Origin: Actinomycetes bacterium
Lineage (GTDB): Bacteria; Actinomycetota; Acidimicrobiia; Acidimicrobiales; Poriferisodalaceae
Direction of reading: 5' to 3'
Assembly (NCBI GenBank): GCA_024228575.1
Contig: JAAETH010000200.1
Span: 1-47,649 of the forward strand
DNA: 47,649 bases
How positions within the stretch are numbered: position 1 is the stretch's first letter; the number at the start of each line of letters is the position of its first letter. Below the pieces are notes generated by a model. It made no database searches and was not told the DNA's origin. It saw only the letters and a list, made by a program, of their open reading frames with translations. This document shows, in pieces, positions 12,508 through 43,372 of this stretch. Position numbers and translations under genes: made by a program.

Positions 12508-14913
12508 GTGAATATTCGTTGGCTCTGGTTTCCGGCGGCCATCGCGGTGGCGGTGCTGCTCGGTGTAGCTCTGGGATTCTTGACCGATACCAAGGACGAT
12601 CCCGTCGCGGTCTCGACTCCGACCAGCACTCCGGCCGCCGCATCGTCGACCACCGAACCCGATTCGGACTCACCGGGAACCACCACCTCGACGCCCGATG
12701 ACGACGTCACCACGACGACGACGTCGACGACAGCGCCACCGGTCATCGAACTGACCAGCACCCAGGGCTGGACCCTGTTGAGCAATGCCAACGGAACCGT
12801 CCCGGTGCCAGCCGAATCCGGTGAACAGACAGCGCTGCTGATCGCGGACATCGACGGCGACGGTATCGACGACACGATCATCGGCAGTCGGCGGGGTCCC
12901 AACGCTGTCCAGGTGATCATGAACTCGGCCGACGGCTGGACCACGACGGTCATCGAACCCGACGAGCTGGGTATCGAGGCCGGCGGAGTGACACACGACA
13001 TCGACTCCGACGGCGATCTCGACATCGTCTTCGGAGGCGATTTCTCATCTCAGGCGGTCTGGTGGTGGGAGAACCCGGCGCCGGACTTCGACGTGGATCG
13101 CTGGACCAGGCGAACGATCAAGAACAACGGTGGTCCCATGCACCACGACATGGTGTTCGCCGACATCAACGGGTCGGGGGTCGCCGAGTTGATCTACTGG
13201 AACCAGCGATCTGAGACACCCACCCTCTGGGCGGCCGAGATCCCCGGGGACCCCAAGGCGGTCGACACATGGGACCGTGTTGCCGTCTGGTTCGCCGGCG
13301 AACCGTACGAGGGCCTCGATGCCGGCGACGTCGACGGCGACGGCGACATCGATCTCGTCGCCGCCGGTCGCCTGTTCGACAACGACGGATCCGGAGCGTT
13401 CCACCTGACCACGATCTCGACGGAACACCAAGGGGGACGGGCTCTCATGGCAGAACTCGTCGAAGGTGGCAACCAGGAGCTGATCTTCGACTCGGGCGAC
13501 ACTATCGGGTCAACGGTCTGGTACGAACTCGATGGCGAGACCTGGGTACGCAACACCTTGCGGGAGACGACCTCTCACGGCCACAGCCTCGACACCGGCG
13601 ACTTCGATGGCGATGGTGACATCGACCTACTGAGCGCCGAGATGCACCTCGAAGCGGGCGACAACGCGAGGTTGACGCTGTACCGCAACGACGGTGAAGG
13701 CAGCTTTGCCTCTGTCGACTTGGCGGTCGGCATGGACAACCACGAGTCGAAGTTCGCCGACCTGGACGGCGACGGCGACCTCGATATCGCATCGAAGCCA
13801 TTCAACTGGCGTCTTCCCCGCCTCGACGTCTGGCTGAACGACGACGTCTCCGCTCTCGCGACGGGATGGAGCCGCACGGTCATCGATGACGCTCGGCCCG
13901 ACCGTGCGATCTTCGTCCTGCCAGGCGATCTGGACGGTGACGGCGACGAGGACCTCGCCTCGGGTCCCTACTGGTACGCCAATCCGGGCGCCGACGGCGG
14001 CTCGTGGACGCGCAGCACATTCGGTGACCCGCTCAACCAGGTTGCCCTCGTCGCCGACCTCGACGGTGATGGCGATCTCGACGCCTTTGGAACCCAGGGC
14101 ATCGGGTCGCAGGCCAACGCCGAACTTGCCTGGGCCCAGAACAACGGCGACGGCACCTTCGACGTCCTGACGAACGTCCCTGACGGCACAGGTGACTTCC
14201 TCCAGGGAGCGACAGCAGGTCGGTTCCAGGACGATGGACCGGTCCAGGTTCTGCTCAGCTGGCACGAGGAAGGGCGAGGCATCCAGTCGTTTGCGCCACC
14301 CCCCGGCGAGGAGGCGACAGGCAGGTGGGCTCGCGGCCTGGTGAGCGAAACGAGCCAGGACGAACAGGTGTCGAACGGCGACATCGATGGCGACGGCGAC
14401 AACGACATCATGCTCGGCACCCGGTGGATCGAGAATATCCCAAATGGGGCGACTCACACCCTGCACACACCCGGCTCGGGCACACCCGACCGCCACCGCC
14501 TCGTCGACATGGACAACGACGGCGACCTCGACGTGGTGGTGTCGTACGAGGACAAGGTCAACGGCAGGGTCGCCTGGTACGAGCAGGGCGAGAACGCCAG
14601 CGAGGCCTGGGCCGAACACCCCATCGCCAACGTGACGATGGGACTGTCGCTCGACGTTGGCGACATCGACGGCGATGGCGACCTCGATGTGGTCGTCGGC
14701 GAACACTCGACACAGGATCCATCATCGATGTCGCTGCTGGTGTTCGAGAACGGCGGCGACGCGGACACGTGGAAGGCCGGAACCATCTTCACCGGCGACG
14801 AACACCACGACGGCACAATCCTGTTCGACGCTGACGGAGACGGCGATCTCGACATCGCGTCCATCGGGTGGACCCACGGTCGGGTAGCCGTCTACGAGAA
14901 CCCTGCGAACTGA
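12508..14913 (+). CDS. Membrane-anchored VCBS/FG-GAP repeat protein with about 12 calcium motifs
   Basis: An 801-residue surface protein. Residues 7-26 form a single N-terminal membrane anchor (no lipobox), followed by a Thr/Ser/Pro/Asp-rich linker to about residue 75. The rest carries about twelve D-x-D-G-D-x-D-type calcium loops spread regularly, the signature of VCBS/FG-GAP beta-propeller blades. Conserved W-W/W-Y-E-N elements between them suggest one or two seven-bladed propellers. It should sit outside the membrane and bind calcium, with a possible role in adhesion or polysaccharide binding. It starts at a GTG, and its TGA overlaps the next ATG (TGATG), so it is co-translated with the Wzz-like and Wzy-like genes. 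Confidence 0.9.
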   Translation: MNIRWLWFPAAIAVAVLLGVALGFLTDTKDDPVAVSTPTSTPAAASSTTEPDSDSPGTTTSTPDDDVTTTTTSTTAPPVIELTSTQGWTLLSNANGTVPVPAESGEQTALLIADIDGDGIDDTIIGSRRGPNAVQVIMNSADGWTTTVIEPDELGIEAGGVTHDIDSDGDLDIVFGGDFSSQAVWWWENPAPDFDVDRWTRRTIKNNGGPMHHDMVFADINGSGVAELIYWNQRSETPTLWAAEIPGDPKAVDTWDRVAVWFAGEPYEGLDAGDVDGDGDIDLVAAGRLFDNDGSGAFHLTTISTEHQGGRALMAELVEGGNQELIFDSGDTIGSTVWYELDGETWVRNTLRETTSHGHSLDTGDFDGDGDIDLLSAEMHLEAGDNARLTLYRNDGEGSFASVDLAVGMDNHESKFADLDGDGDLDIASKPFNWRLPRLDVWLNDDVSALATGWSRTVIDDARPDRAIFVLPGDLDGDGDEDLASGPYWYANPGADGGSWTRSTFGDPLNQVALVADLDGDGDLDAFGTQGIGSQANAELAWAQNNGDGTFDVLTNVPDGTGDFLQGATAGRFQDDGPVQVLLSWHEEGRGIQSFAPPPGEEATGRWARGLVSETSQDEQVSNGDIDGDGDNDIMLGTRWIENIPNGATHTLHTPGSGTPDRHRLVDMDNDGDLDVVVSYEDKVNGRVAWYEQGENASEAWAEHPIANVTMGLSLDVGDIDGDGDLDVVVGEHSTQDPSSMSLLVFENGGDADTWKAGTIFTGDEHHDGTILFDADGDGDLDIASIGWTHGRVAVYENPAN

Positions 14914-15689
14914 TGGAAGCAGACGGCGCGGGATCGCCGCCTGCCCAACCCCCCTTCGTCGGGCGCGAAACACACAGAAGCCGCGATCGTCTCCTGCTTT
15001 CTGCCCTGGTGCCGGTCGTGCTCGCTGTTGTCGCATTCGGGCTGGCATTCGTAATCCGGTCCAGCGCGGACGCCCGATACGGCTATGCCGTCACTCTGTC
15101 AACTCGACACGACGGCACCACAGGGCCATTCGACAACCGGAGCCAGCTGATGGCGGTACTGACAGACGCCGCCTACCAACACGAACAAGCCGGCACGGAT
15201 TCATCGGTTGACCTGGTCGCTCGGTTCAACAACCTGATCGATATCAGAGTCGACTCCTCGAGCGCCGGCTCTGCCGAGGCGACCGCCCGACAGTTCGTCG
15301 ATCTGGCGATCAGCGACCGCAAGACTGCTTCGACAGCCCTCGCTTCCTCGAGGCTCGACGCGCTGATCAGTCAGGCCGATGCCACTCGAGAGACCCTCAC
15401 CAGGGCCGTCTCCGACCTGGCGGCACTGCCCGCCGGCGACGACTCGGGGCGACGTGACGAGGTGGAACACTCGATCGATTCGCTGACCACCGCGCATGAC
15501 TCCCTGAGCCGAAGCATCGAAGACGCCTCCACCGAGCTGGCAGCAGTGGTGGTTCCCGTGGACGTGACCACCTCTCACAGCCTCGGACAGATCGCACCGC
15601 GCAGTGGACGCGACGCCTCGATCGCTGCTGCTGTTGCTGCGCTGATCTCCCTCGTGACGCTGACCTTGACCGTATGGCGGAACGACTAG
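14913..15689 (+). CDS. Wzz-like polysaccharide co-polymerase (small, no kinase)
   Basis: A 258-residue protein with the co-polymerase topology: a helix at about 28-49, an extracytoplasmic region with a coiled coil at about 138-212, and a second helix at about 236-254 ending just before the C-terminus. It lacks a kinase domain and is too divergent for me to claim the canonical Wzz Pfam domain. Residues 30-135 resemble the N-terminal part of the fusion at 41525-43372 (shared A-R-Y-G-Y/P-R-Y-G-H stretch and similar spacing). The start overlaps the VCBS stop. The end overlaps the polymerase start by 16 nt, so the two proteins are probably made together and set polymer chain length. Confidence 0.75.
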   Translation: MEADGAGSPPAQPPFVGRETHRSRDRLLLSALVPVVLAVVAFGLAFVIRSSADARYGYAVTLSTRHDGTTGPFDNRSQLMAVLTDAAYQHEQAGTDSSVDLVARFNNLIDIRVDSSSAGSAEATARQFVDLAISDRKTASTALASSRLDALISQADATRETLTRAVSDLAALPAGDDSGRRDEVEHSIDSLTTAHDSLSRSIEDASTELAAVVVPVDVTTSHSLGQIAPRSGRDASIAAAVAALISLVTLTLTVWRND

Positions 15690-16933
15690 ATCCCCGGCGC
15701 TCGAAGCGCTCTGCGGCACTTGCAACAATTGCCGTTGCCATCCTCGCCACCGCCGATGTCGACGTGGAATCCATCGGCTGGGCGGGTAGCTCGCTCGGAC
15801 CGTGGCACCGTTTCACATCCCTGTCGCTCGCCTGGACGCTCGCAGTAGCCACCGGGCTCACATCGCTCGTTCGACTCGACCGTCGCACACTCAGATCGCT
15901 CGTTCCCGTGGCCTTCTTGCTGGCGTGGCTCGCACTCTCCTCGCTGACGGGTCTCCATCCGGGCCGATCGATGATCGTTTGGCTCGGCTGCACAGCCGCC
16001 GCCCTCGCCGCTTGTGCAGTCGCCGCCCAGGGCATGAGAACGGCGCTTGTCGCAGTCGCAGCTCCAAGCGCGGCAATCGTCTACGGATCGTTGTTCACGT
16101 GGTTCGTATTCGGTCGATTGGGCTCGGGGGTCGATTCGAGATTGGCCGGCTTGGTGTTCGAGCCGAACATGTTGGGCCACCTGGCCGGGCTGCTGCTCAT
16201 CGCAGGAGTCTCGTTCGCGCAGACGACAACACGCCCCGCCGCAGTGCTGCTCGCCACTGTTCCGGCCGCCGTGACAGCGATCATCGCAAGCGACACGCGT
16301 GCCGCCTACCTGGGAGTGTTGATCGCGCTCCTGGCGATGGTGCCCAGGAGAGTTTTCGTCGCTGTGGTTGCTGCAGCAACCGTCACAATCTCTGTCATCG
16401 CCGTGTTCGCTGCGCCGTCGGACCTGCAAGACATCCTTCGAAGAGACGCGGATGAGGAACTGGTTGAGCTGAGTGGTCGATCCCACATCTGGCCGATCAA
16501 TATCAACTGGGTTCTCGACGATCCGATCACCGGAGCCGGCCTTGCCAGCGGCCCCGCACAGTTCCACACGAACGCCCACCGCGACGGACTCATCCAGTTC
16601 AGCTTCAGCTCACACAATCTGGCCCTCGAAATCGCCCGCGAGGCGGGCCTTGTCGGACTCGGACTCGCTCTGGCGTCAGCCGTTGCGGCCAGGCCCTGGC
16701 GCAGCTCAACGATGCGCCCGTTGTTCGTCTATCTACTGATCACAGGGTTGACGATGCCGATGTCGGGCCTGCCCGGGATCATTGTGGCCACCTGGTTCGT
16801 CGTCATCGTCGTCGGGGCAAACACGCCGGCTCTATCACCTGTTCGCTCGACCGGGCCCGCTCCTTGTCGACAGGAACCGATAGGTTCGAACCGAGGGCAA
16901 GATGGACGAGAGTTTCCCATACATCAACCGTGA
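15674..16933 (+). CDS. Wzy/O-antigen-ligase-like polysaccharide polymerase (copy 1)
   Basis: A 419-residue polytopic membrane protein with about 11 helices. Family-type marks are F-E-P-N-M-L-G-H in mid-protein, S-G-R-S-H-I-W opening the large loop, and G-A-G-L-A-S-G-P followed by S-S-H-N-L-A-L-E-I-A-R-E. It is expected to polymerise or ligate lipid-linked oligosaccharide outside the membrane. The N-terminal stretch G-P-W-H-R-F and the loop are closely similar to the polymerase half of the fusion at 41525-43372. The gene overlaps the Wzz-like gene by 16 nt and ppk1 by 32 nt; its last ten or so codons are a low-complexity tail encoded over the start of ppk1. Confidence 0.85.
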   Translation: MAERLDPRRSKRSAALATIAVAILATADVDVESIGWAGSSLGPWHRFTSLSLAWTLAVATGLTSLVRLDRRTLRSLVPVAFLLAWLALSSLTGLHPGRSMIVWLGCTAAALAACAVAAQGMRTALVAVAAPSAAIVYGSLFTWFVFGRLGSGVDSRLAGLVFEPNMLGHLAGLLLIAGVSFAQTTTRPAAVLLATVPAAVTAIIASDTRAAYLGVLIALLAMVPRRVFVAVVAAATVTISVIAVFAAPSDLQDILRRDADEELVELSGRSHIWPININWVLDDPITGAGLASGPAQFHTNAHRDGLIQFSFSSHNLALEIAREAGLVGLGLALASAVAARPWRSSTMRPLFVYLLITGLTMPMSGLPGIIVATWFVVIVVGANTPALSPVRSTGPAPCRQEPIGSNRGQDGREFPIHQP

Positions 16934-18982: not shown

Positions 18983-20584
18983 CTAGTCGTCAGAATTGCC
19001 GTAGCCGTAGCCGTAGTTGTACCAAGACTCGCTGCTCTCGGAGGCGAACGTCGTAACGATGCCGGCGATCTTCACCTGATGCTGTTCGAGCTGGGTGAGT
19101 GCGTTGTCCAGCTGACGACGTGACGTCTTGCCCATGCGCACGCAGAGGATCGCGACATCGGCAGCCTTGGTGAGTACCATAGAGTCGCTGACCGCCAGAA
19201 CCGGCGGGCAGTCGACGACAATCGTGTTCCATTGAGTCTCGAGCTTGCCGTATACGGCCTCGACGCGTTCCGAGGCGAGCTCGTAGCGTGAGACAGGCAC
19301 CGATCCCGACGGGGATACGAGCAGGTGAACGGGCTGCTCGTTGGTGGGATAGGCGAACCACTCCTTGGTCGAAGGGTCGAGCTGGCCGGTCATCACCGCA
19401 GCGAATGCATTGTCGCCCTCGGCATCGAAGAGATCTGAAACGGTCGAGTTGAGCAGGTCACCATCGAGGACCGCCACCGAGCGCCCTGACCTGGCCATGG
19501 CGAGGGCATAGTTGCCTGCCGTGACGCTCTTTCCTTCGTTGGGGTTGGCGCTGGTGAATGCGACGACCAGCGGCGTCTGTCCCTGCGTCGCAACCTCGAT
19601 GGCCGAGCGAAGGTACCTGAAGGCCTCCGCCTCTCGCCTGGCGTTGCGACGCCCGACAACCAGCGCAGAAGAGCCGTCACGGAACTTCCTGCGGAACTCG
19701 GGGACCGTGGCCAGCACGGGGATGTCGGGTCCCGCCACCGCTCTGATATCGTCGAGCAGCGTCAGCCTGCCCCGAACACGCGACACGACGACAGCCGCGA
19801 TCAGAGCAAGCACCAGCGCCAACACGGCCACCTGAAGCGGTCGCATGAATGAACTCGGTGAGCTCTCGACAGCGGCACTAGCCAGGTTCACGACCTGAAC
19901 CTCGCCGCCGGCACTCAGTATCAGGAACTCCCGCTCCTGAATCGCCTTTTCATACTCGGCGAGCCTTCGCAGAGCTGCAGCGATGCGACTCTCGAGGATC
20001 GAGATCTCGTCGGTCGAAGCAGCATCCCCGTCCCTGAGCGACTCGAGTTCGAGTCTCATGTCCTCGATCGTCTGAAGTTGATCGTCGCGTTGTCCGGTCA
20101 GCGGGTTGAGCTCACGCTCGAGCGCTTCGTTCGCGTCGCCGACGCGCAGGTTCACAAACTGCTCCGTCGCTGCCACTGCCGCCGCCTCGGCAACAGAGGC
20201 TGTGCTGGCCACGGCTGTGATCGTGATGACAGGTGTGTCCTCGCGGTTCGTCGCCGAGATGGCGATCAGCTCGCCATCGGTCGTCACAATCGCCTCGCTC
20301 ACGGAACTCCGGAACTGGGCCGATTCGATGCGCAGCGTCTGGGCTTCGATCTCCTGCAGAGCGTTGTTGCGGCTGCGGGCAGCACCGATGCCGGCCGCCG
20401 TCTCGTCAGTGAGTTCTACTACCGCCTCGGATACGTAGGTTGATTCACCGACATCTTGGAGAAGGTAGGTCGCCAAAGCAGCGGTAACGGCGAACGCCAG
20501 CGCGATGGGAGCGGCCCTCCGCACGGCTCGCACAGAGCGGCGCGTGATCAGTTCGTCCTCGTTCAGGAATTCGTCCGTAGCCAC
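18983..20584 (-). CDS. Wzz-BY-kinase fusion (Wzc/CapB-type co-polymerase and tyrosine autokinase)
   Basis: A 533-residue protein. The Wzz-type half has helices at about 25-42 and 250-269 around a coiled coil (about 155-225). The cytoplasmic BY-kinase half has Walker A S-A-N-P-N-E-G-K-S (345-353), Walker A' V-A-V-L-D-G-D (370-376) and Walker B I-V-V-D-C-P-P (455-461). It ends in four alternating tyrosines, Y522, Y524, Y526 and Y528, the expected autophosphorylation cluster. All kinase residues are present, so this should be the active chain-length regulator of the locus. It starts at GTG 20584 with a GAGG ribosome-binding site. Its promoter overlaps that of leuA in the opposite direction. Confidence 0.93.
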   Translation of the reverse strand: MATDEFLNEDELITRRSVRAVRRAAPIALAFAVTAALATYLLQDVGESTYVSEAVVELTDETAAGIGAARSRNNALQEIEAQTLRIESAQFRSSVSEAIVTTDGELIAISATNREDTPVITITAVASTASVAEAAAVAATEQFVNLRVGDANEALERELNPLTGQRDDQLQTIEDMRLELESLRDGDAASTDEISILESRIAAALRRLAEYEKAIQEREFLILSAGGEVQVVNLASAAVESSPSSFMRPLQVAVLALVLALIAAVVVSRVRGRLTLLDDIRAVAGPDIPVLATVPEFRRKFRDGSSALVVGRRNARREAEAFRYLRSAIEVATQGQTPLVVAFTSANPNEGKSVTAGNYALAMARSGRSVAVLDGDLLNSTVSDLFDAEGDNAFAAVMTGQLDPSTKEWFAYPTNEQPVHLLVSPSGSVPVSRYELASERVEAVYGKLETQWNTIVVDCPPVLAVSDSMVLTKAADVAILCVRMGKTSRRQLDNALTQLEQHQVKIAGIVTTFASESSESWYNYGYGYGNSDD

Positions 20585-23921: not shown

Positions 23922-24625
23922 GAGGCGCAGGTCGAATCGCCACAGTCGCACTAGCCATAGCCATTCTTCTTGGTGGCGCTTCGGCCATGGCCGCTGCACG
24001 GTGGCCCGGGATGGAGCAGGCAGAGCTGTTCCTGCGCGCGGACTCCGAAACCGGGCTGCGCAGCGAAGCAGTCCTGTCAGCAGACGTTTCGGCCGGACTC
24101 GAGGCCATCGGACTGGATTTCGACATCGAGTACGAGAGCGGCGGGAATGTCACGGTTGTCACCTACCGCTCAGAGGATGTCGACCCGTTGCGAAGTGCCG
24201 TGATCGAGGCGGTCAGCGCTGCCTTCGAAACAGCCCGCCTGAACGACGTCAATAGCCGGGTCGAGACTCTGCGCTCGGAGTTGAGCGATCTCGAGGCCGA
24301 CGTGGAATCGGCCAAACAGCTTCTCGAGGTGCACATCGAAGCTGAGACAATTCTCGAGTCAGAACAGGACAAACAGCTCGCGGCCGTGAAGCGGTCCGAG
24401 CTCACTGCCGACTTGAGAGCGGCCGATGCACTCGTGCGGTCGCACAAGTCGCCAATCGCCGATCTCGAACGAAGCCTCGAGCGCCCAATGATCGTACTGG
24501 AGATCCGGAACTCGCCGATCTCGCAGTCACGAGTACCCGCCCCGATGGCCGCGGGAGGCGGCGTATTCGTGCTGGTATTGCTGACGGTGTTTGTTCTCAG
24601 TCCGTCTTCAGCATCGAAACGCTGA
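23918..24625 (+). CDS. Wzz-like polysaccharide co-polymerase (small, no kinase)
   Basis: A 235-residue protein with the co-polymerase layout: N-terminal helix (about 5-27), an extracytoplasmic domain with a coiled coil at about 108-190 rich in Glu, Leu and Ser, then a Pro/Gly-containing approach (S-R-V-P-A-P-M-A-A-G-G-G) into a second helix at about 212-229. A proline-rich motif ahead of the last helix is typical of Wzz proteins. No kinase domain is attached. It starts with GTG in a GTGA overlap with the upstream polymerase and probably sets its product length. Sequence similarity to the 14913 protein is weak; the match is in topology. Confidence 0.75.
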   Translation: MRGAGRIATVALAIAILLGGASAMAAARWPGMEQAELFLRADSETGLRSEAVLSADVSAGLEAIGLDFDIEYESGGNVTVVTYRSEDVDPLRSAVIEAVSAAFETARLNDVNSRVETLRSELSDLEADVESAKQLLEVHIEAETILESEQDKQLAAVKRSELTADLRAADALVRSHKSPIADLERSLERPMIVLEIRNSPISQSRVPAPMAAGGGVFVLVLLTVFVLSPSSASKR

Positions 24626-26954: not shown

Positions 26955-27719
26955 TCACGTGTACCGAGCCCAGACCTCGGCGATCTCGGCTGGATCGAAG
27001 AAATGTGATGTGTACTGTGTCGTCAGGAGTCGCTCGACAAGAACCTCTGGCAGCTTCAGTCCTTCTCGAAACTCCTCGTAGACGGGACCGTACCATTTGT
27101 CAGACGCCTCGTTCTCGCGCGTGAGCTTGATCGCCGAACCGACGAACTCGCTGATTAGTGGAAGGTTGTCATTGAGTCGATCCGATCGAAGCAGCAGCAG
27201 ATCAAACTGACCGCACGAGATCGAAGTGGCGCCTCGCGTGACATCAAATTCGACGTCAAAGACATCGATCCCAGTAAACCGCTTAAACTCCTGCTCGTAC
27301 CAACCCGTCACGTAGTCATGTGGAAAGATCTCGAGGAAGATACGTCGCAACAGGTCGGGTTGAGTCATTCGTGAGGTGAATTGCTTGGATCCGTACATGC
27401 CGACATCAAATGCTACTATCCAGTAGGGAAGTCCTTGGAAGAACATTGACACATTTCGACCAATCGGTTCTCGCACAATGGACAGAATACGCACCCGGCC
27501 CGATCGGTTCCGGATCTTCCATCGAGTCAGTGCGTCAGACAATTGTCGAGCACTCCGCTGATATTGATGCCGTCGACGCAAAGTGTATTCGGGCGGTGTT
27601 GGCATGTTTTGATAGAATGAATGTACGTGTATTGCATTCGGCAATGCTCGCTCAAGTGCAGACGAGCCTACTTTTCCTGATTGATAGATCAGAATCGGAC
27701 AATGGGAGGACATCTTCAT
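26955..27719 (-). CDS. NKWYS-family putative capsular polysaccharide synthesis protein (sulfotransferase-like)
   Basis: A 254-residue protein beginning at ATG 27719 in a 4-nt overlap with the flippase stop. The N-terminal I-Y-Q-S-G-K-V-G-S-S-A-L resembles the phosphosulfate-binding loop of sulfotransferases, followed by the second PAPS-type loop I-V-R-E-P-I-G-R-N-V-S. The motif D-K-W-Y-G-P-V-Y corresponds to the N-K-W-Y-S signature of the putative capsular polysaccharide synthesis family (PF10364). I infer that it modifies the polymer, probably by sulfation. Base composition is unlike its neighbours: five 60-base lines inside the gene (27241, 27421, 27541, 27601, 27661) total 139 G/C of 300, or 46%, against 62% in a leuA control line (21061). 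Confidence 0.75.
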   Translation of the reverse strand: MKMSSHCPILIYQSGKVGSSALERALPNAIHVHSFYQNMPTPPEYTLRRRHQYQRSARQLSDALTRWKIRNRSGRVRILSIVREPIGRNVSMFFQGLPYWIVAFDVGMYGSKQFTSRMTQPDLLRRIFLEIFPHDYVTGWYEQEFKRFTGIDVFDVEFDVTRGATSISCGQFDLLLLRSDRLNDNLPLISEFVGSAIKLTRENEASDKWYGPVYEEFREGLKLPEVLVERLLTTQYTSHFFDPAEIAEVWARYT

Positions 27720-28996
27720 CGATTCATTCTGCGCACCGACGGCATTGGGAAGAAGCCAAGTCGCTTCTTGACGAGGAAAGCTTGATACAACATCACCACG
27801 GTGAGTCCAAGCGTCCGAGACCAGGCAGCCCCAACTCCACCGAAGGCTGGCACCATGGCGACACAAGCGATGAGTGATCCAGAGGCACCGATCGCGTGAG
27901 CGACTGCCGCATCCCGCTCGTGCCTCGTCATCGCCAGGAGCCCCCCGACCGAACCCGACACAGCACTCACCACCTGGCCGATCGTGAGAATCACAAGCAT
28001 GCTTGCAGCCTCTTCAAAATCTGTGCCTACGAATCCAAGGATGTCGCGCCCGGCGACGACGACAACAATGAGCACAGCGACGCCGACGGAAGACGCGACA
28101 CCCGAGGCCAGTCGTGCCAGCTGCCGAAGCCGCTCTGACTCGCCGTTCTCGTACGCTGCGGCGAACTGAGGGAACACAACGCTGTTCATCACGACGAGAA
28201 TGACAGAAGCCGACATGGACAAGCGGAGCGCTACGGAGAAGAGACCGACCTCATCGTCGGACGCGACCGCAGCGAGAAACAGCTGCGGGCTCCACATCTC
28301 GACAAGCGTCAGAGCGACGCCGACGAGGAGCATGCGACTGCTCCGGTCGAGTGCAGCAGTGTCGACTTCCCCAGCCGAAGTCGTCCTTGTGCGCCGCCAA
28401 TCCGCCCATCCGATCAAGTAGGCAAGCGCTGTCGCTGCCAGGAATATGCACGCGGCACCGAGAGGACTGACACTGGCGCCGATCGCGATCAGGAACACGA
28501 ACACAGCGGTCCCGATACCCACGACGAGTGCGTTCTGATACATGTGAAACCGAACGAGACGCATCTCTCCCTGGAAAGCGTGTGAGATCAGCCATCGGCC
28601 GGAGGTCGCGACGGATCCGATCAACACCACTGCGATGACCGCACCGCGACCGCTGCTCACCGACCAGGCCGGGACAATCGCCATCGTGATCCACACCACG
28701 GAGGAGAGTACGAGTGTTGCGATCGAGGCGACGCGGACGGCGTGGAGTAGGACTGCCGATACTGTTGCATCATCGGACGCCGCGGCCACCTCACGAGTCA
28801 CCACAGCGTCGAAACCGACTCTGCCCAGAGAAGAGACGATCGTGAGGACTGTCAAAGCAACCAGGATCTGCCCTGCGCCTGCGCTACCCAACAAACGGCC
28901 GACGCTCCATGTAAACGCCAGGCCGGCAGACGCGGCGAATCCCTTGGCAAGGGCCGACGCAAACGCTGGTTTCCGAATATCTTTCGCCAGCTTCAT
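27716..28996 (-). CDS. Wzx-type polysaccharide flippase (MOP superfamily)
   Basis: A 426-residue membrane protein with about 12-14 helices and few soluble loops. The N-terminal F-A-S-A-L-A-K-G-F-A-A-S-A-G-L and helix-rich organisation match polysaccharide flippases that move undecaprenyl-linked repeat units to the outer face. I chose ATG 28996, which gives a 4-nt overlap with the GT2 stop; a longer ORF start at 29095 would place 33 non-membrane residues inside the GT2 gene. The stop overlaps the NKWYS-type start by 4 nt. It is the only flippase gene in the window, so it may serve more than one of the polymerases. Confidence 0.87.
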   Translation of the reverse strand: MKLAKDIRKPAFASALAKGFAASAGLAFTWSVGRLLGSAGAGQILVALTVLTIVSSLGRVGFDAVVTREVAAASDDATVSAVLLHAVRVASIATLVLSSVVWITMAIVPAWSVSSGRGAVIAVVLIGSVATSGRWLISHAFQGEMRLVRFHMYQNALVVGIGTAVFVFLIAIGASVSPLGAACIFLAATALAYLIGWADWRRTRTTSAGEVDTAALDRSSRMLLVGVALTLVEMWSPQLFLAAVASDDEVGLFSVALRLSMSASVILVVMNSVVFPQFAAAYENGESERLRQLARLASGVASSVGVAVLIVVVVAGRDILGFVGTDFEEAASMLVILTIGQVVSAVSGSVGGLLAMTRHERDAAVAHAIGASGSLIACVAMVPAFGGVGAAWSRTLGLTVVMLYQAFLVKKRLGFFPMPSVRRMNR

Positions 28997-29877
28997 CGCA
29001 CTCGAGCAAGTCCGCTCAGGGCGAGCAGGTGAGACCGAACCGACGGGCGCCCGCGAGAGTACGCCAGCTTCAGCAGGGCCCAGATCTCTCGCCATTCCCT
29101 GCGTGCCGCCGCATACCGAACCGTCTGACCCATCACAAAGTCAGCCGCCGTACGATCATCCATTTGTGGTCCGTGCCTGTCGTAGAACGTGAGGGACGTG
29201 TCGAAGTCCGAGGATCGCGAGATAGAACCCTCGCTCGAGTAGGCGACCGACACCAGAACATCATCGATCTGCTCAATACCGCACCACGTCTCATCTTCGA
29301 GACACCGGAGAAGGAAGTCCCAATCCTGGTGCCGTGGAAGACCCAGCTGCCACTGAACTCGTTTGGCGAGATCCGACCTGACGATGAGCGTCGAAGTTTG
29401 GATCGAATTGCGCCGGTTGTCGAGACGCCGTCGAGCAAAGAGGTATGTGGCGAGATTGTCATCTCGTTGAATCGTGCGGGCAGGAACGGCATCGGCGAGA
29501 CACCGACCGTGCGCCAGCAATCGGTAGCGGCACGACACGAGGCTTGCTCTGGAAGCTTTCTCGAGCTGGATCGACGCCCGTCGATGATCCCAGACATCGT
29601 CGTCATCGAGAAACGCAACCCAGGGGGCCGCTACAATCGCCGTTGCGTCGTGCCGCTCGGCACCGGCCGGTGCGTTGTCATCAATCTCGACGACCTGCAC
29701 CAAGCCTCGCCATGGCCTGAGACGTTCGTGTAGCCCCAGCTCATCGATAGTCGCGCTCCGCGACGCAACAAGAACGCGTTCAGGAGGATGGTCCTGGGCT
29801 GCAACGCTCGCGACCGCCTCCTCGAGGGTCTCCCGTCCGGTGGTTGGAATGACGACTTCGTAGGGTTCAGCTCGCAT
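28993..29877 (-). CDS. Glycosyltransferase family 2 (GT-A)
   Basis: A 294-residue enzyme. The GT-A fold is indicated by E-V-V-I-P-T-T-G-R at the N-terminus, an A-G-A-E-R-H substrate-side motif, and the metal-binding F-L-D-D-D-D-V-W, followed by W-D-F-L-L-R-C. There is no membrane helix. It probably adds one sugar to the lipid-linked repeat unit in the cytoplasm. I chose ATG 29877, overlapping the sulfotransferase stop by 11 nt, over the longer ORF start at 29964, because the GT-A strand begins immediately after this Met. It overlaps the flippase gene by 4 nt. Confidence 0.9.
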   Translation of the reverse strand: MRAEPYEVVIPTTGRETLEEAVASVAAQDHPPERVLVASRSATIDELGLHERLRPWRGLVQVVEIDDNAPAGAERHDATAIVAAPWVAFLDDDDVWDHRRASIQLEKASRASLVSCRYRLLAHGRCLADAVPARTIQRDDNLATYLFARRRLDNRRNSIQTSTLIVRSDLAKRVQWQLGLPRHQDWDFLLRCLEDETWCGIEQIDDVLVSVAYSSEGSISRSSDFDTSLTFYDRHGPQMDDRTAADFVMGQTVRYAAARREWREIWALLKLAYSRGRPSVRSHLLALSGLARVR

Positions 29878-30966: not shown

Positions 30967-32487
30967 TCACTGCGAGCATCGGGTCGGACGCTCGGCCCTG
31001 TCGTTCGCTACCAGATCTACCACGACCTGATCGCCGGACCCGACCGACACTAGGGCCGCCTCGACATCGACATGTGCTTCTGCATATGCACCTTGACGGA
31101 TGATCGCCCAGACGGTCTGCACGATGAGCCTCAGGTCCGAGAAGAACGACCACTCGTCGATGTAGAGATTGTCCATTCTCACCCGCTCGTCCATGGGGGT
31201 GTCGCCACGAAGACCACGAACCTGGGCTAGACCGGTCAGCCCGACCGGCAGTCGGTGACGGTGGACGTAGCCAGCCACGCTCACCGAGAAATCGTCGACG
31301 AATGCCGGGCGTTCGGGTCTGGGGCCAACGAACGACATCTCGCCGCGAAGAATGTTCCACAACTGTGGGAGTTCGTCGAGGCTGCTCCACCTGATGAACC
31401 GGCCAATCGGGGTGAGGCTTGCCTCAGAAGAACTCGGAGTCCACACGGAGTCGCTATCTGTGTTGACAGTCATGGATCTGAACTTGAGCAGTTCGAAGGG
31501 CAGGCCGTAGCGACCGATCCGCTGTTGGCGGAACAGCACGGACCCCTTGCTCGTCAGCTTCACCGCAAACGCAGTCGCGAGGACCAGGGGGCTCAGGATC
31601 GTGAGAGCCAAACCGCTGCAGGAGATATCGAACAAACGCTTGAATCGAAGTCCGAGCACCGGGTGCGATGACCTGGCCAGTCGCACGAGCGAGTAGCCGC
31701 GGGCTTGGTCTGGATTCATCGGGTCGATATCGTGCGCCCAGCCGAACACCTGAGGCAGCACGAATACGGCGACACCGGGAACCGGAAGCTGCCGCAGGGC
31801 ATTCAGCACTTGCTCGTCATCACCCTGCCCGACGGTAACGATCACGCGATCCGAGTTCGTTAGCGACGTGAGCCTCACGATATGTTTGATGTTTCCGATG
31901 ATCGGGCCCGGAAGAACGCACTGACTCTCGAGCCCGCGAGTTGCGACATAGCCGGCGATATCCACCCCGTACCCAGGCTTGTGATCAAAGTCCACGCCCA
32001 GCTCGCGAGCGACTGAACCGGTACCCACGACGATCGCCCTCGACCGCAAGTGACCCCTTTTGCGAGCGAATCGCAACACACGAAACGAACACCAGCGAGA
32101 GGCCAGGAGAATCGCCAACAACCCAGCGGATGCAGCGACAACGGTGCTCGGGGTCGGAGGCCGAATACCGGACACGCCGATGACGACGATAACCGTGAGC
32201 GAGACAGCTGCGAGGGCCGAGAGCAGTGTCGCCATGTCCTCGCCGAAGTCTCGAGACATTCTCGTGCGGTAGTGACCGCGAATCAACAGGAGCAGGACCA
32301 TTAGCACCGCGAAGGGAACGCCACGCTTCAGGGTCCAGCGGAACAGTGGGAAGGCACAAGCGGTTGCAACGATGTCGAAGCCGAACAGGATCAGGGAAGA
32401 AGCGCGGGTGGGATGACGAAATGTCGAGGCGCCGAACCCCGTGCGCCGAGGTTGCATGATCTCGTTGACATGCACGCTGGCTGTCAT
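30967..32487 (-). CDS. WbaP/WcaJ-type polyprenyl-phosphate phosphoglycosyltransferase
   Basis: A 506-residue membrane enzyme that starts repeat-unit synthesis by moving a sugar-1-phosphate onto undecaprenyl phosphate. The N-terminal part has four to five helices (about residues 30-130), then a nucleotide-binding-like domain with V-V-G-T-G-S-V-A-R-E-L (about 150-260). The C-terminal catalytic bacterial-sugar-transferase domain contains K-R-L-F-D-I-S in the re-entrant helix, F-R-Q-Q-R-I-G, L-L-K-F-R-S-M, L-D-E-L-P-Q-L-W-N-I-L-R-G-E-M-S-F-V-G-P-R-P and G-L-T-G-L-A-Q-V-R-G. All core motifs are intact. AAGAAGG lies upstream of the ATG. It is the only initiating enzyme in the window. Confidence 0.94.
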   Translation of the reverse strand: MTASVHVNEIMQPRRTGFGASTFRHPTRASSLILFGFDIVATACAFPLFRWTLKRGVPFAVLMVLLLLIRGHYRTRMSRDFGEDMATLLSALAAVSLTVIVVIGVSGIRPPTPSTVVAASAGLLAILLASRWCSFRVLRFARKRGHLRSRAIVVGTGSVARELGVDFDHKPGYGVDIAGYVATRGLESQCVLPGPIIGNIKHIVRLTSLTNSDRVIVTVGQGDDEQVLNALRQLPVPGVAVFVLPQVFGWAHDIDPMNPDQARGYSLVRLARSSHPVLGLRFKRLFDISCSGLALTILSPLVLATAFAVKLTSKGSVLFRQQRIGRYGLPFELLKFRSMTVNTDSDSVWTPSSSEASLTPIGRFIRWSSLDELPQLWNILRGEMSFVGPRPERPAFVDDFSVSVAGYVHRHRLPVGLTGLAQVRGLRGDTPMDERVRMDNLYIDEWSFFSDLRLIVQTVWAIIRQGAYAEAHVDVEAALVSVGSGDQVVVDLVANDRAERPTRCSQ

Positions 32488-34457: not shown

Positions 34458-34486
34458 TTGTTCCACGAACGTATGTTTGGTATCAT
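34458..34486 (+). promoter_or_regulatory. Leaderless promoter of the intact HNH gene (-35 TTGTTC, -10 TATCAT)
   Basis: TTGTTC (34458-34463) and TATCAT (34481-34486) are separated by 17 bp. The predicted transcription start, 7-8 nt downstream, falls on the ATG at 34494. The surrounding sequence is AT-rich, like that upstream of the HNH pseudogene. Confidence 0.6.
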
Positions 34487-34493
34487 AATGTTG

Positions 34494-37637: not shown

Positions 37638-38705
37638 ATGATGCCAGAACAACACGATGGCCCGACGGCCGATGAGAAGGGCCTCATCCTGATCACCGGT
37701 GGCGCTGGATACATCGGAAGCCACACCGTGGTTGCCTTGCACGAAGCGGGGTACCGCTGCGTCGTACTCGACAACCTCGCGAACTCGTCCAGCAGCGTGC
37801 TCGGCGGCATAGCGAAGATCATCGGCACCACACCCGACTTCGTCGAAGCCGATGTGGCCGACACTCATACGCTTGACCAGGTGTTCGAGAGCCGACGAAT
37901 CGACGCGGTCATCCACCTCGCCGGCCTGAAGTCAGTCGGTGAATCGGTCTCGAGTCCCCTCGACTACTACTCGGTCAATCTCGAGTCGACTCTGTCGCTC
38001 CTGCGGTCCATGCACCGATTCGAATGCCACACTCTGCTGTTCTCGTCATCAGCCGCGGTGTATGCACCCGGACAGGAGTCACCGATCACCGAAACGGCCG
38101 CCATCCAGCCGACAAGTCCATACGGCCGCAGCAAGCAGATGATCGAGCAAATCCTCGTCGATACCGCCGCCTCAGATGACCGCTGGCGAGTCGGTCTTCT
38201 TCGCTGCTTCAACCCCGTCGGAACACATCCATCGGGAAGCATTGGCGAGAGCCCGGGCAGCAAACCAAACAACCTCATGCCATCTGTCATGGATGTTGCC
38301 GCAGGACGCGGCGAAACTCTGCGACTCTTCGGCGATGACTACCCAACACCCGACGGCACCTGTATTCGCGACTACATCCACGTGATGGACATCGCCCGCG
38401 GCATCGTTGCGGGGCTACAGCGAGTTCGCGCGATGACGGGCACACGTGTCTGGAACCTCGGCACGGGTCGCGGAACATCGGTGAGAGAACTTGTTTCGGC
38501 AGCCGAGGAAGCGACGGGAGTCGAGATCCCCACGAGCGTGACGGATCGTAGACCCGGCGATCAACCGGTCGCCATAGCCGCGATAGGGCGGGCACAACAT
38601 GAGTTGAGCTGGGATGCTGAACACGATGTCGCAACAATGTGCGATGACCACTGGAGATGGCACCGCCTGCATGCCGCACCCGCGACGACAGCATCTCCAC
38701 CCTGA
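37638..38705 (+). CDS. galE: UDP-glucose 4-epimerase
   Basis: A 355-residue extended short-chain dehydrogenase. The NAD-binding T-G-G-A-G-Y-I-G-S-H, H-L-A-G-L-K-S-V-G-E-S, S-S-S-A-A-V-Y, the catalytic Y-G-R-S-K and the GalE-type R-D-Y-I-H-V-M-D are all present. It interconverts UDP-glucose and UDP-galactose (or the N-acetyl forms), supplying donors for the glycosyltransferases here. The ATG is 2 nt after the thiolase-like stop, with only GAGG overlapping it as a ribosome-binding site. The substrate side-chain choice (UDP-Glc or UDP-GlcNAc) cannot be told from what I can see. A polymerase gene follows 57 nt later. Confidence 0.93.
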   Translation: MMPEQHDGPTADEKGLILITGGAGYIGSHTVVALHEAGYRCVVLDNLANSSSSVLGGIAKIIGTTPDFVEADVADTHTLDQVFESRRIDAVIHLAGLKSVGESVSSPLDYYSVNLESTLSLLRSMHRFECHTLLFSSSAAVYAPGQESPITETAAIQPTSPYGRSKQMIEQILVDTAASDDRWRVGLLRCFNPVGTHPSGSIGESPGSKPNNLMPSVMDVAAGRGETLRLFGDDYPTPDGTCIRDYIHVMDIARGIVAGLQRVRAMTGTRVWNLGTGRGTSVRELVSAAEEATGVEIPTSVTDRRPGDQPVAIAAIGRAQHELSWDAEHDVATMCDDHWRWHRLHAAPATTASPP

Positions 38706-38762: not shown

Positions 38763-40127
38763 GTGCCCCCTGCTGTAGAAACGAGACCGCGCCAGGATGA
38801 GGCTGTCAATCCCCCACTAGCGCCCCGGCAGTCCCGGATCCCGGTCATGATCACCGTTGGAGTCGCTTCGGCCAGCATGATCGCTTGGTCGCCGATCTCG
38901 GTCCGGGGCGAATACGGCCTCACGGTCCCGATGCTCGCCCTTACAGCCGCCATCGGCTTCGAAGTCGTGTCTGGTCGGATGCCCCGCCACGTACTCGGAG
39001 TGGCATTTCGCTGGACGACCAGCCCCTTGGCTCTTTGGGTGATTGCGAGCACAGTTCTGATTCCGCTGGTATTCGCTGGTACCGCGGTGTTTCGCACCGC
39101 CGAGGGACAGGTTCCGCTCGGGCTCGGGGCTCGCAACTTCTTCCACCTGGCTCAATTGGGAGTGTTCGCTGCAATCGCTGGCTTCATCGGGCACCTGGCA
39201 AACAGCGGCGGAGTCAAACGGCGACAATTGGCTCGGTCATTCGTCGCTTCAGGATGGGTGTGTGCTGCCTTCGGGGTGCTACAGGTCAGCTATAACCTCG
39301 GCTGGCTCCCCGAGGTCGAACGGCTGTTCAACAACCCGAGCTTCGCCCACAACCCAGGCCAGAGGATCTCGGAATCGATTCCACGCCTGAGCGCCCTGCT
39401 GGTCGAGCCCAGCTTCGCAGCGGCCTTCATTGCCGGCTACACGGCCTTCGTCGCAATGTTGTTCGTCGGACGATCCTGCGTCGCCAGTCAAACAACGCTG
39501 GGTGTCTCGACAGGATTGGGTGTGCTCATGCTTGCTGCCACTGCATCCACAACCGGCGCAGTCGGGCTCGGAACGGTATTGGCCTCGCTGCTCTTCGCTC
39601 GGCGAGGCAGGACCATTGCCCATGACAGGCGGGCCCTTGGCATCCTCGTTGCGACAATCGCCGCTTTGGTAGTCTTCGTCATCGTTGCTGCCACCATGTT
39701 GGACGCGTCGATTGCCGACGGAGTCTCCGAAGTCGTAACCGAAAAAGCCGAATCCGACTCTGCGCTTTCGCGGGCAGAAGGCGAGCGGCTTGCCTTCGAG
39801 ACTCTGTTCGCCACAGGTGGGCTGGGCGCCGGTTGGGGCTCGGGTGATGCATTCTCGTTGGCGTCGAGCATCGCTGTTGGTCTTGGCATCCCCGGCATCG
39901 CTCTGGCGCTCAACGCGCTGTGGTGTCGACGTCACGAACTCGCCGACGACGAAGTTGCCCGCGCCGCCCGGACAGCCCTGGTCGTTTCTGTTCTGGCCGC
40001 CCTGGCTTCGGTTCCTCAGTACGTGTTGTTCCACTTCTGGATCCTCTGCGGACTCGGCCTGCGGCCAAGGATCGCACCGTTGTCGGGCACAAGCGCTCAG
40101 TCTCCTGGAATACTGCTCACGCCATGA
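38763..40127 (+). CDS. Wzy/O-antigen-ligase-like polysaccharide polymerase (copy 4)
   Basis: A 454-residue polytopic membrane protein with about 11 helices. It has V-E-P-S-F-A-A-A-F in the mid-protein position where the others have x-P-N, and S-R-A-E-G-E-R-L-A followed by G-A-G-W-G-S-G-D-A-F-S in the large loop. The S-H-N motif of copies 1 and 5 is absent, so it belongs to a different branch of the family. It is expected to polymerise lipid-linked units on the outer face. The GTG start is probably leaderless. The stop overlaps the start of the kinase-dead BY-kinase homologue by 4 nt, so the two are translated together and likely function as a pair. Confidence 0.83.
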   Translation: MPPAVETRPRQDEAVNPPLAPRQSRIPVMITVGVASASMIAWSPISVRGEYGLTVPMLALTAAIGFEVVSGRMPRHVLGVAFRWTTSPLALWVIASTVLIPLVFAGTAVFRTAEGQVPLGLGARNFFHLAQLGVFAAIAGFIGHLANSGGVKRRQLARSFVASGWVCAAFGVLQVSYNLGWLPEVERLFNNPSFAHNPGQRISESIPRLSALLVEPSFAAAFIAGYTAFVAMLFVGRSCVASQTTLGVSTGLGVLMLAATASTTGAVGLGTVLASLLFARRGRTIAHDRRALGILVATIAALVVFVIVAATMLDASIADGVSEVVTEKAESDSALSRAEGERLAFETLFATGGLGAGWGSGDAFSLASSIAVGLGIPGIALALNALWCRRHELADDEVARAARTALVVSVLAALASVPQYVLFHFWILCGLGLRPRIAPLSGTSAQSPGILLTP

Positions 40128-41689
40128 TCTCCACCTCGCGAACCGAGGACGAATTGCTCGGTCTCCGGGCAACGCGAGCCCTCGCAATGTCGATACCTCT
40201 GGCGCTACTCGCGGCACTTGCCACGTGGATGGCCAGCTCCACACTCGACAGTTCCTCGGCAGGGCCCTTCTCTTCGGAATCAACAATCGAGCTCACCGAC
40301 ACCGTCACCAACGGCGTCAACGTTGGCCTTTCGACGCCGATTGATCACCGAGAAACATCCGCGGCGGCTGCCTATGTCAATTCCTCGGAGTTTGACGAGG
40401 CCGTTCGGTTCGATTTGGGAGCTGACGGCGCTGCAGTCAATTGGATATGGGGTGAATACTCATCTTCGACACCACTCCTCACCATCGAGGTCAACGCGAC
40501 CAAGCGTGCGACCGCTGTGGCAGCAAACGAAATCGCCGTGGCGAAGTTCATCGAGTTTCGCATCGAAACAGAACTGACCGAGCTTCAGACAACGCTCGGG
40601 TCCCTCAGAGAACGGCGTGACATCCAGGTGGAGGTGGTGGACGGGCTCACGTCCGAGCTGGAAGCGGCGCACTCGGCCGAGGCGACCACAAGAGCCGGAA
40701 CGATCCAACGTCAGCTCAACGCCTCAATCACTCGCCTCGCTCAACACGAGGCTATGATCCAAGACCGCGAATTGCTGGTCGCTGGAGCCACCGGCCAGGT
40801 CACGGTTCTGGCGCGACCATCCAAGGCGGTCGACCTCGCCGCTCCACCCTCACACGCAGCGCGGGCAGGTGCAGCATTTGTTGTCTTCATTGTCGGCGCC
40901 CTGCTGGTGGGCCGATTCCGTAATCGGCTGGAAGTGGCCGAAGAGGTGGCAGCCATCGCAGGCGCCGCAGCCCCCGTCCTGGCAGTCATGCCAGAGTTTC
41001 AGCGACCCTTCCGACGTGGGAGCGAAACCCTTGTTGTCGGTCACCCGAGTTCTCCTCCCGAAGCCAATGCCTTTTGCGGCTTGTGCACTCGAATCGAAGT
41101 CGCCACCGAAGGCAGGACTCCTATCGCTATCTCCTTGATCAGCGCTTCGACGAGACTCACAAGCGCGGTCGTCACGGCGAACCTCGTCCTCTCGATTGCG
41201 CGGCTCGGCCGAAGCGTCGGAGTGGTTGACGGGACGTTTCCCCGTGGAATTGTCTCACAGCTCTTCGCGCCGCAGGGAGACAACGCTCTTCACAGCGTCA
41301 TCGACGGCTCCCTCGACCCGACCAGTGTCAGCTGGCCGCCGGCCGCCACGTCGGCCGGGCAAATCGAACTCCTCGTCTCCAGAAATCGGAGTGCGCCCGA
41401 TGAGACGCCCGAGGTCTCGCACGCTGCCGTCACAGCAGCATTCGAGCGTCTCCGGCAAGTGTGGGACGTCGTTGCTGTCGACTGCCCGCCGATCGGGACC
41501 TCGAGCTGGTCGACCTTGCTGGCTTCAGCCTCCGATGCGGTGATTCTGGTCGTGCCCTTGAGAAGGACGAAGCGCAGGGAGCTGGAGGATGCCCTTGCCG
41601 AACTCACCGGCATGAAGGCGCCCATGATCGGCATCGTCGTGACCCACGCCAAGTCGCGCTTCTCGTTCCGCAGCCTGATCGATCGATAG
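40124..41689 (+). CDS. Wzz-BY-kinase homologue with destroyed Walker A and no tyrosine tail
   Basis: A 521-residue protein that aligns along its whole cytoplasmic half with the active BY-kinase at 18983-20584 (shared P-V-L-A-x-x-P-E-F, F-R-x-G-S, L-V-V-G, A-x-L-G/S-R-S-V, V-D-C-P-P). The Wzz part has helices at about 21-38 and 247-263. Where the active protein has N-E-G-K-S, this one has R-L-T-S-A (344-348), losing the P-loop Lys and Ser. Walker A' V-V-D-G-T lacks the second Asp. Walker B V-A-V-D-C-P-P is kept. The C-terminus, F-S-F-R-S-L-I-D-R, has no tyrosine. The frame is fully open, so this is not an ordinary pseudogene; it is probably a kinase-dead co-polymerase for copy 4. The 3' end overlaps the convergent fusion gene by 165 bp. 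Confidence 0.88.
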   Translation: MISTSRTEDELLGLRATRALAMSIPLALLAALATWMASSTLDSSSAGPFSSESTIELTDTVTNGVNVGLSTPIDHRETSAAAAYVNSSEFDEAVRFDLGADGAAVNWIWGEYSSSTPLLTIEVNATKRATAVAANEIAVAKFIEFRIETELTELQTTLGSLRERRDIQVEVVDGLTSELEAAHSAEATTRAGTIQRQLNASITRLAQHEAMIQDRELLVAGATGQVTVLARPSKAVDLAAPPSHAARAGAAFVVFIVGALLVGRFRNRLEVAEEVAAIAGAAAPVLAVMPEFQRPFRRGSETLVVGHPSSPPEANAFCGLCTRIEVATEGRTPIAISLISASTRLTSAVVTANLVLSIARLGRSVGVVDGTFPRGIVSQLFAPQGDNALHSVIDGSLDPTSVSWPPAATSAGQIELLVSRNRSAPDETPEVSHAAVTAAFERLRQVWDVVAVDCPPIGTSSWSTLLASASDAVILVVPLRRTKRRELEDALAELTGMKAPMIGIVVTHAKSRFSFRSLIDR

Positions 41690-43372
41690 TCGGGCAGCCG
41701 AGGCCGCGATACAGACGAACCAGACAAATACCACGGTGCCCGGGATGCCGACGGACGTTCTCGTGACAGCCGTGACGCACAGATACGCGAGGACGGGACG
41801 AAGGCGACGCTGTCGCCAAGGACGCGCCATCACGAACGCTACAGAAGCCAGCACCAACCCGATCAATCCCGTCTCACGGGCGATCTCGAGGAGGAGATTG
41901 TGAGAGCTCGGTGCAAACACAACCAGAGCAGCCTCGGCCGACTCGCGACCAAAGTGGTCAGGGCCTGAGGCCAGACCCCACCCAGCCACCGGGCGTTGGG
42001 CAATCTGGTCGATGGTGAACTCCCAGATCTCGTCACGACCGTGCAGGGTCAGGAGCTCGTCAGACCCGCCTGCCGGCTCATCCCACAGACCCAGGGCAAC
42101 CACTGCTGCAAGGGCAACTACGGCCGCTGCAGCAACCGCTAGCGCCTGAGCCAACGGCCGTCGACCCAAGTCGACGACGTACACGATCGCCGACACCAGT
42201 ACTGCAGCGAGCGCCGTGCGCGTTTCGCTAAGCGTGACGACGGTCAAGCCCACGGCTGCAAGGAGGCCCAGTCCCAACTTGGCTTTCGTGCCCAACTTCG
42301 CCGAGCCTCGCTCCCGGGTGAGCAACAGAACACCGGCCAGGACGACGAGCAGCCCGCCTATCTGGCCCGCCACGTTCGGCTCTGCCGTCAGTCCGCTGAG
42401 CCGACCGGCGATCAGACCTCCAAGGGACCACCCGGAGTGCGTGGCATGTGCAAAAAGCGACGCCACGCTGATCAGTCCCGATGCAACAATGGCCACCAGG
42501 AGACCCGCCTTCAGAGGGCGCTCGCTCAGACCCACGGCGATCAAGGCCAGCGATGCGTAGCCGAGCCAGGCTACACCCGACCGAAGCGGCGCTACCGACA
42601 CGAACACCCCGGCGAGACCCCACAGCAGGAACCCGCCGAGAGGAGCAAGGTGCCTCAGTCCCCGAGAGCACCCGCGGAGAAGAAGTGCGGCACCGACCAC
42701 ACCCAAACCCCAGCAGGCAACCAGAACGGCCACACGATGCCACGGCGCCAGGGACCACACGCTCCAGGTCCAAGCTCTCACTTGTAGATCCGCGACCGCG
42801 ACGGCCACGCCAAGCACCACGATTCCCGGAAGCGGTGGTTCGACGAGTCGTCGGAGCGCAGTCCTGTCCCCGCTGACACCGACCAGCGCGACCAGCCCGA
42901 CGAGGACAACCGCCGAGGCAAGTCCCGCTTCCGCTAGAGCTCTAGGAGACACGATCCCACGCTCGATCGACGCGACCACCAGCACTGGCAGACCGGAGGT
43001 CAGGGCGAGTCGCTCCGCGACTTCGACAGCATCGCTGGCGTTGGACTGGCTATCGGCAACAGCACTGATCTCGATGAGATCGTGCTGCTTGGTGGCAACC
43101 AGCATCTCGACGTCCGGCCAATCGGCTCCATCGAGCGATTCGATCAGGATCGAGCGGTTCTCGACGACGCTGTGGGTTTCGGACGGAAGTGTCTCGAGCG
43201 TCAGGTCATGGCCATACCGAGGTTGATCCGTAGACCGCACAGCGAACACGCCGATGAACGCGAATGGAAGCAGAACAAACCAAGCCCACGCCGGAACCCT
43301 CGTCCACCGAGTGGACACCGCGGACCAAACCCGATCATCTGATCCGAGGGTCTGTCCTTGTTGTCGGTACAT
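41525..43372 (-). CDS. Fusion of Wzz-like co-polymerase and Wzy-like polymerase (copy 5)
   Basis: A 615-residue protein. Residues 1-170 form a small co-polymerase module: helix about 28-45, extracytoplasmic region with P-R-Y-G-H and E-N-R-S-I-L, second helix about 149-166. From about 175 to 560 it is a complete polymerase with A-P-W-H-R-V, A-E-P-N-V-A-G-Q, H-G-R-D-E-I-W, G-W-G-L-A-S-G-P and S-S-H-N-L-L-L-E-I-A-R-E. Both halves match the separate overlapping genes at 14913-15689 and 15674-16933, but the coiled coil of the separate Wzz-like protein (about 75 residues) is missing. The last 55 residues are encoded antisense to the kinase-dead BY-kinase gene. Start is uncertain: 43372 overlaps the GT4 gene by 38 nt; GTG 43318 is an alternative. 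Confidence 0.83.
   Translation of the reverse strand: MYRQQGQTLGSDDRVWSAVSTRWTRVPAWAWFVLLPFAFIGVFAVRSTDQPRYGHDLTLETLPSETHSVVENRSILIESLDGADWPDVEMLVATKQHDLIEISAVADSQSNASDAVEVAERLALTSGLPVLVVASIERGIVSPRALAEAGLASAVVLVGLVALVGVSGDRTALRRLVEPPLPGIVVLGVAVAVADLQVRAWTWSVWSLAPWHRVAVLVACWGLGVVGAALLLRGCSRGLRHLAPLGGFLLWGLAGVFVSVAPLRSGVAWLGYASLALIAVGLSERPLKAGLLVAIVASGLISVASLFAHATHSGWSLGGLIAGRLSGLTAEPNVAGQIGGLLVVLAGVLLLTRERGSAKLGTKAKLGLGLLAAVGLTVVTLSETRTALAAVLVSAIVYVVDLGRRPLAQALAVAAAAVVALAAVVALGLWDEPAGGSDELLTLHGRDEIWEFTIDQIAQRPVAGWGLASGPDHFGRESAEAALVVFAPSSHNLLLEIARETGLIGLVLASVAFVMARPWRQRRLRPVLAYLCVTAVTRTSVGIPGTVVFVWFVCIAASAARLSIDQAAEREARLGVGHDDADHGRLHAGEFGKGILQLPALRPSQGHDQNHRIGG

Follow-up and report, generated by a model that had tools for sequence, protein, structure and literature searches.

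A candidate BY pseudokinase co-polymerase in an exopolysaccharide locus of an actinobacterium

BY-kinases normally time the building of surface sugar chains, and it is an open question whether their work as co-polymerases needs the phosphorylation cycle or can be done by the scaffold alone. In the CapB octamer, about half of the interface is formed by the EX2RX2R motif and the other half by the tyrosine cluster (PMC3795738). Mutation of the cytoplasmic ExxRxxR in VpsO lessened oligomerisation and left no more polysaccharide than the deletion did, while the kinase-dead variant K551A yielded more oligomer and more polysaccharide (PMC7485978); such a protein is therefore not necessarily inactivated when only catalysis is lost. 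PssP2 of Rhizobium leguminosarum is a single chain with neither Walker motifs nor a Y-cluster, which forms homo-oligomers, binds the polymerase PssT as well as its paralogue PssP, and upon disruption alters the chain length of EPS (PMC4182512). EcpK (with EpsV, in Myxococcus xanthus) and HfsB (with HfsA, in Caulobacter) have been proposed to be PCP-2 scaffolds, and the paper on EcpK additionally mentions variants in which the pseudokinase is joined to the membrane part, e.g. SMc01795 (PMC12004946). Here we compare with these systems an actinobacterial gene, P0001, and its active paralogue, P0002, both located in a 47,649-nt stretch of DNA (the window).

Topology and motif losses of P0001

P0001 occupies positions 40124..41689 (+) and codes for a protein of 521 aa, which we assign as a putative BY-pseudokinase co-polymerase from its open frame, its homology to P0002, and its placement in a well-supported clade of active kinases. 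P0002, a protein of 533 aa encoded at 18983..20584 (-), is the active BY-kinase paralogue, and the two proteins are 34% identical across ~509 aligned positions (E 4e-77), with 27% identity between their N-terminal halves. An earlier note on this DNA described an open, kinase-dead paralogue of an active protein carrying NEGK, DGD and four tail tyrosines, and the alignment agrees on both counts: P0001 has an uninterrupted frame of 521 codons and can be aligned along its length to P0002, which has all of these features, including the tail that is absent from P0001.

The order of parts in P0001, as seen in hydropathy and in a structure model, is that of PCP-2 proteins, with two membrane helices around an extracytoplasmic domain, followed by a cytoplasmic domain. 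Both helices, which the note had also recognised, were recovered: the first spans residues ~16-34 (40169..40225, +; helix 8-38 in the model), and the second residues ~245-263 (40856..40912, +; helix 244-264). P0001 yielded no Pfam match, and hence no Wzz profile match, and P0002 likewise lacks the latter; TIGR01007 matched P0001 with an E-value of 2.8e-16 and 59.7 bits, below its cut-off of 108.05, as is also the score of P0002 (98.4). An AlphaFold2 model of P0001, obtained from an alignment of ten of our own sequences, had a mean pLDDT of 71.5 and matched full-length Wzc from residue 11 to residue 511, and its kinase domain matched CapA1B1 with a Z-score of 26.6 (226 residues, 2.5 Å) and the Wzc kinase domain with a Z-score of 25.4. 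Since the underlying alignment was built from active relatives, the BY-kinase fold of this domain is predicted rather than independently proven.

Each of the functional motifs was then read against the relatives. The ring-contact motif EX2RX2R, which has the form E-x-F-R-Y-x-R in all eight complete active relatives, P0002 included (E-A-F-R-Y-L-R in the latter), with invariant E, R and R, is lost from P0001, where residues 315-321 (41066..41086, +) read N-A-F-C-G-L-C, corresponding to E315N, R318C and R321C. Walker A at residues 340-347 (SASTRLTS; 41141..41164, +) is degenerate: SANPNEGKS of P0002 is replaced by SASTRLTSA, so that the P-loop lysine is gone, and the reported change from NEGK to RLTS is plainly visible in the alignment. 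Walker A' at residues 368-373 (41225..41242, +) has changed from LDGDLL to VDGTFP, and the supposed loss of the metal-binding Asp applies to the second Asp, whereas the first, D369, stays in place. Similarly, Walker B was said to be kept, and its core is indeed intact at residues 451-456 (AVDCPP; 41474..41491, +), with D453-C-P-P unchanged, but the invariant Asp nine residues further on is replaced by Trp462 (41507..41509, +). The C-terminal YNYGYGYG of P0002 has no counterpart at residues 509-521 (41648..41686, +), where frame, alignment and other frames agree on the lack of a tyrosine cluster; the statement that P0001 has no tyrosine holds for its cytoplasmic part, but not for the extracytoplasmic domain, which contains Tyr84 and Tyr112, the only two in the entire protein. 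The EX2RX2R loss and the Asp-to-Trp462 change were absent from the note, as was the minus-strand location of P0002.

At 62 family-invariant kinase-domain positions at which P0001 has a residue, functional motifs hold 13 of the 25 lost positions versus 5 of the 37 kept ones (Fisher P 0.0014); the core residues G280, S340, D369 and D453 are among those retained. A sequencing frameshift hiding the motifs could be ruled out, because neither NEGK nor a tyrosine tail was found when the other reading frames of P0001 were searched. Judged by its sequence, the designation of P0001 as a pseudokinase is supported.

Origin of the loss and signs of selection

The family survey covered 39 genomes and yielded eight relatives in five other genomes, in addition to P0002 in the same genome. 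NEGK is kept in all nine of these proteins, and the tyrosine tail in all eight that are complete, with P0002 counted in both cases. In the order survey of 397 genomes, 54 distinct further BY-kinase-like proteins (57 loci, including three repeats) were read at the motif columns; this survey is a sample, as the search scored few candidates per genome. GK[ST] is kept in 53 of the 54, the exception being L140 (G306:C4:6800-8700), in which Walker A reads EGRT. With its AGD at Walker A' and no terminal tyrosine cluster, L140 may be another BY pseudokinase of the order. A further BY-kinase-like protein from the same genome as P0001, L004 (G000:C466), has an intact Walker A but lacks tyrosine throughout its final 80 residues, and adjoins a large 17-helix membrane protein.

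In the tree, P0001 falls inside the active clade of the family with support of 100/98, although its position within the clade is poorly fixed. Because it nests among active proteins and its relatives keep GK[ST], the loss of kinase motifs in P0001 is, as judged from the tree and alignment, derived, and among the family and order relatives surveyed the loss of Walker A appears nearly unique to it. The branch leading to P0001 is long, with 1.3 changes per column in this tree, and it is ~three to five times longer than the neighbouring branches in both halves of the protein. No P0001 orthologue in either motif state was found in the 39 family or 397 order genomes searched, and a contig scan with P0001 as the sole query returned no matches; a second contig scan, with an alignment query, sought NEGK-containing patterns and was therefore uninformative on pseudokinases.

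The absence of orthologues among the genomes searched and the length of the branch are both compatible with P0001 being a pseudogene in early decay, in which kinase function is gone while the frame is still unbroken, as is the loss of nearly half of the family-invariant residues in both halves of the protein. We examined this reading with a purpose-written codon model of the branch, in which fits with omega = 1 were run from several starts. On the P0001 branch, omega = 1 was rejected, at a cost of 28.6 log-likelihood units over the whole protein, 9.9 over the N-terminal part and 19.9 over the kinase domain; synonymous sites are saturated, and hence the model rejects omega = 1 without providing an estimate of omega. 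By this test P0001 shows past purifying selection over its branch, which argues against decay. The rejection does leave room for a terminal neutral phase, since 0.3 substitutions per codon of such a phase cost only 1.8 log-likelihood units, and the likelihood alone, which bounds it loosely, is compatible with a neutral phase of up to about that length. Other features speak against a gene in decay. About 1.4 stop codons are expected for every 0.1 neutral substitutions per codon, and P0001 has none; the 17 lost residues in and around the motifs require at least 29 nucleotide changes, which exceeds the expectation for a short stop-free neutral phase; and P0001 keeps its coding base composition, its codon-position GC being the same as in other genes of the cluster. 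Dividing kinase-domain identity by N-terminal identity gives 1.17-1.50 for P0001, inside the range of 1.00-1.53 for active proteins, and therefore erosion is not concentrated in the kinase domain. Early decay thus strikes us as unlikely, and retention of P0001 after the loss of catalysis is the favoured interpretation of its sequence. The earlier suggestion of a selected pseudokinase is sustained by the rejection of omega = 1, by the normal conservation of the kinase domain, and by the coupling of the gene to a polymerase-like gene, described below.

Genomic surroundings

Immediately upstream of P0001 is a gene at 38763..40127 (+), the stop codon of which overlaps the P0001 start (ATGA). Its product has eight hydrophobic helices and a collinear but weak match to a Wzy profile (40.6% probability), with no Pfam or NCBIfam match, and its relatives were found only in the same genome, apart from one marginal match in the order; we regard it as a putative Wzy. 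It is preceded by a gene for a GalE-like epimerase (37638..38705, +; PF01370, E 4.8e-55). The cluster further includes a Wzx-type flippase (27716..29095, -; PF01943, E 5e-13), an initiating sugar-phosphate transferase (30967..32487, -; PF02397, E 3.3e-60) and several glycosyltransferases, so that P0001 is linked to Wzx/Wzy genes.

On the other side, P0001 is convergent with a gene at 41525..43372 (-), in which a short co-polymerase continues into a Wzy polymerase (Wzy_C, E 3.5e-15), the latter being 35% identical to the Wzy at 15674. The fusion is a single frame comprising a two-helix co-polymerase (residues ~26-158) and Wzy (191-559), unlike the two overlapping genes that encode these parts in relatives and at 14868-16933, and its last ~55 codons overlap the 3' end of P0001 on the opposite strand. 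P0002 likewise faces, across ppk1, a short co-polymerase (14868-15689) followed by a Wzy (15674-16933), which together span 14868..16933 (+) and were recognised by profile match and by comparison with relatives. Active BY-kinases also converge on a Wzy of this type in genomes G009, G008 (twice) and G016, and ppk1 lies between the convergent BY-kinase and Wzy in G001, as it does at P0002. Given this convergent order in relatives, P0001 is situated in the usual BY-kinase place of an exopolysaccharide locus.

Several Wzy-like genes are present in the window (14868-16933, 22356-24625 and 38763-43372), each adjoining a co-polymerase-like gene, and two of these co-polymerase-like genes are short forms without a kinase domain. 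FG-GAP repeats abound in an 801-aa protein whose gene (12508-14913, +) adjoins the first co-polymerase/Wzy pair. Elsewhere in the window, a PknG-like kinase (rubredoxin, kinase, TPR), a PP2C phosphatase and a VWA-domain protein are encoded in a row at 4079-8603 (+), and a protein without a Pfam match is present in two copies, ~55% identical, at 34458-35975 (+) and at about 1547-2773 (-), with ~40 middle residues of the former missing from the latter.

Proposed function and comparison with known systems

We consider it probable, by a fair margin over even chances, that P0001 is a selected BY pseudokinase, i.e. a single-chain PCP-2 protein acting as a phosphorylation-independent co-polymerase. 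Among the options raised in the earlier note this one fits best, in view of the precedents of PssP2, EcpK and HfsB and of the ATGA overlap with the polymerase-like gene. From its sequence and surroundings we infer that P0001 would have neither canonical ATP binding nor autophosphorylation, would offer no cytoplasmic tyrosine to any kinase, and would assemble, most likely, via its membrane and extracytoplasmic parts. It could then assist the polymerase-like protein of 38763-40127, or the convergent Wzy, in chain growth, which would run without a phosphorylation-driven cycle of assembly and disassembly, and may thereby shift the chain length or the amount of one exopolysaccharide. The loss of both EX2RX2R and the tail makes a kinase-face ring of P0001, pure or mixed, unlikely, and, lacking ExxRxxR, a co-polymerase of this kind would have to assemble differently from VpsO. 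A more far-reaching version is possible, albeit doubtful: that a switch took place within the family from a kinase-controlled to a phosphorylation-free co-polymerase, in which catalytic site, tail and ring motif were discarded and the fold was kept, with assembly proceeding by an undescribed contact, and that P0001 may tune its active paralogue.

Alternatively, P0001 could be a regulatory subunit that enters mixed complexes with P0002 and damps or poisons its assembly/disassembly cycle. The two genes share a contig, 20 kb apart, and PssP2 and its paralogue PssP were recovered together on purification (PMC4182512), but P0001 has lost both of the motifs that make up the ring interface in CapB, its N-terminal half is highly diverged from that of P0002, it overlaps a different polymerase-like gene, and the authors of the EcpK study argue that pseudokinases of this kind do not rely on active kinases (PMC12004946). 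We therefore hold little expectation of such a role, and the mixed rings with the active kinase proposed in the note are weakened by the same losses and by the lack of a cytoplasmic tyrosine for P0002; a P0001-P0002 complex could still form through membrane or extracytoplasmic parts, by analogy with the PssP2-PssP pair. A new activity of the cytoplasmic domain, such as binding of another ligand or protein by the remodelled P-loop, could draw on the retained fold signature and core residues, and adaptation could explain the long branch, but it is very improbable, as the P-loop lysine and the second Walker A' Asp are missing and aligning P0001 with its relatives revealed no specific new motif.

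Returning to the phosphorylation-independent co-polymerase, comparison with described proteins can be made at several distances. P0002 and its family relatives are direct homologues of P0001, with similar length, domain order and convergent placement to Wzy, and keep every kinase feature, whereas P0001 does not. Wzc, Etk, VpsO and CapAB share with P0001 the topology, the cluster setting and, as predicted, the cytoplasmic fold (Z 19 to 27), but their Walker A lysine, second Walker A' Asp, EX2RX2R and Y-cluster are absent from it. P0001 thus combines a predicted BY-kinase fold with the lack of catalytic motifs and Tyr tail that characterises BY-pseudokinase PCPs, with the Walker B core Asp still present. 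Like PssP2, it has a single-chain Wzc-like topology, a short extracytoplasmic domain, no Walker motifs apart from the retained Walker B core, no Y-cluster, a Wzx/Wzy setting, and a paralogue with ATP motifs in the same genome. EcpK and HfsB are likewise BY pseudokinases lacking the Walker motifs and the tyrosine tail (PMC12004946), but they are separate cytoplasmic proteins, while the pseudokinase of P0001 is joined to the membrane part. PssP2 comes from a Gram-negative host and has demonstrated interactions and an effect on EPS, in contrast to the actinobacterial P0001, which is known from sequence. Since P0001 lies inside an actinobacterial clade of active kinases, its loss of kinase function looks independent of that in PssP2, with which it was compared by description rather than by sequence.

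P0001 is, then, an actinobacterial member of the already known type represented by PssP2, EcpK and HfsB. With P0002 beside it, one cell naturally combines an active kinase with a derived pseudokinase whose ring contacts have been lost along with catalysis, and both of them face Wzy genes. If the proposed function is correct, P0001 would extend the phosphorylation-independent PCP-2 group from the described Gram-negative examples to an actinobacterium, and would show that co-polymerases of this kind can arise directly from active single-chain kinases.
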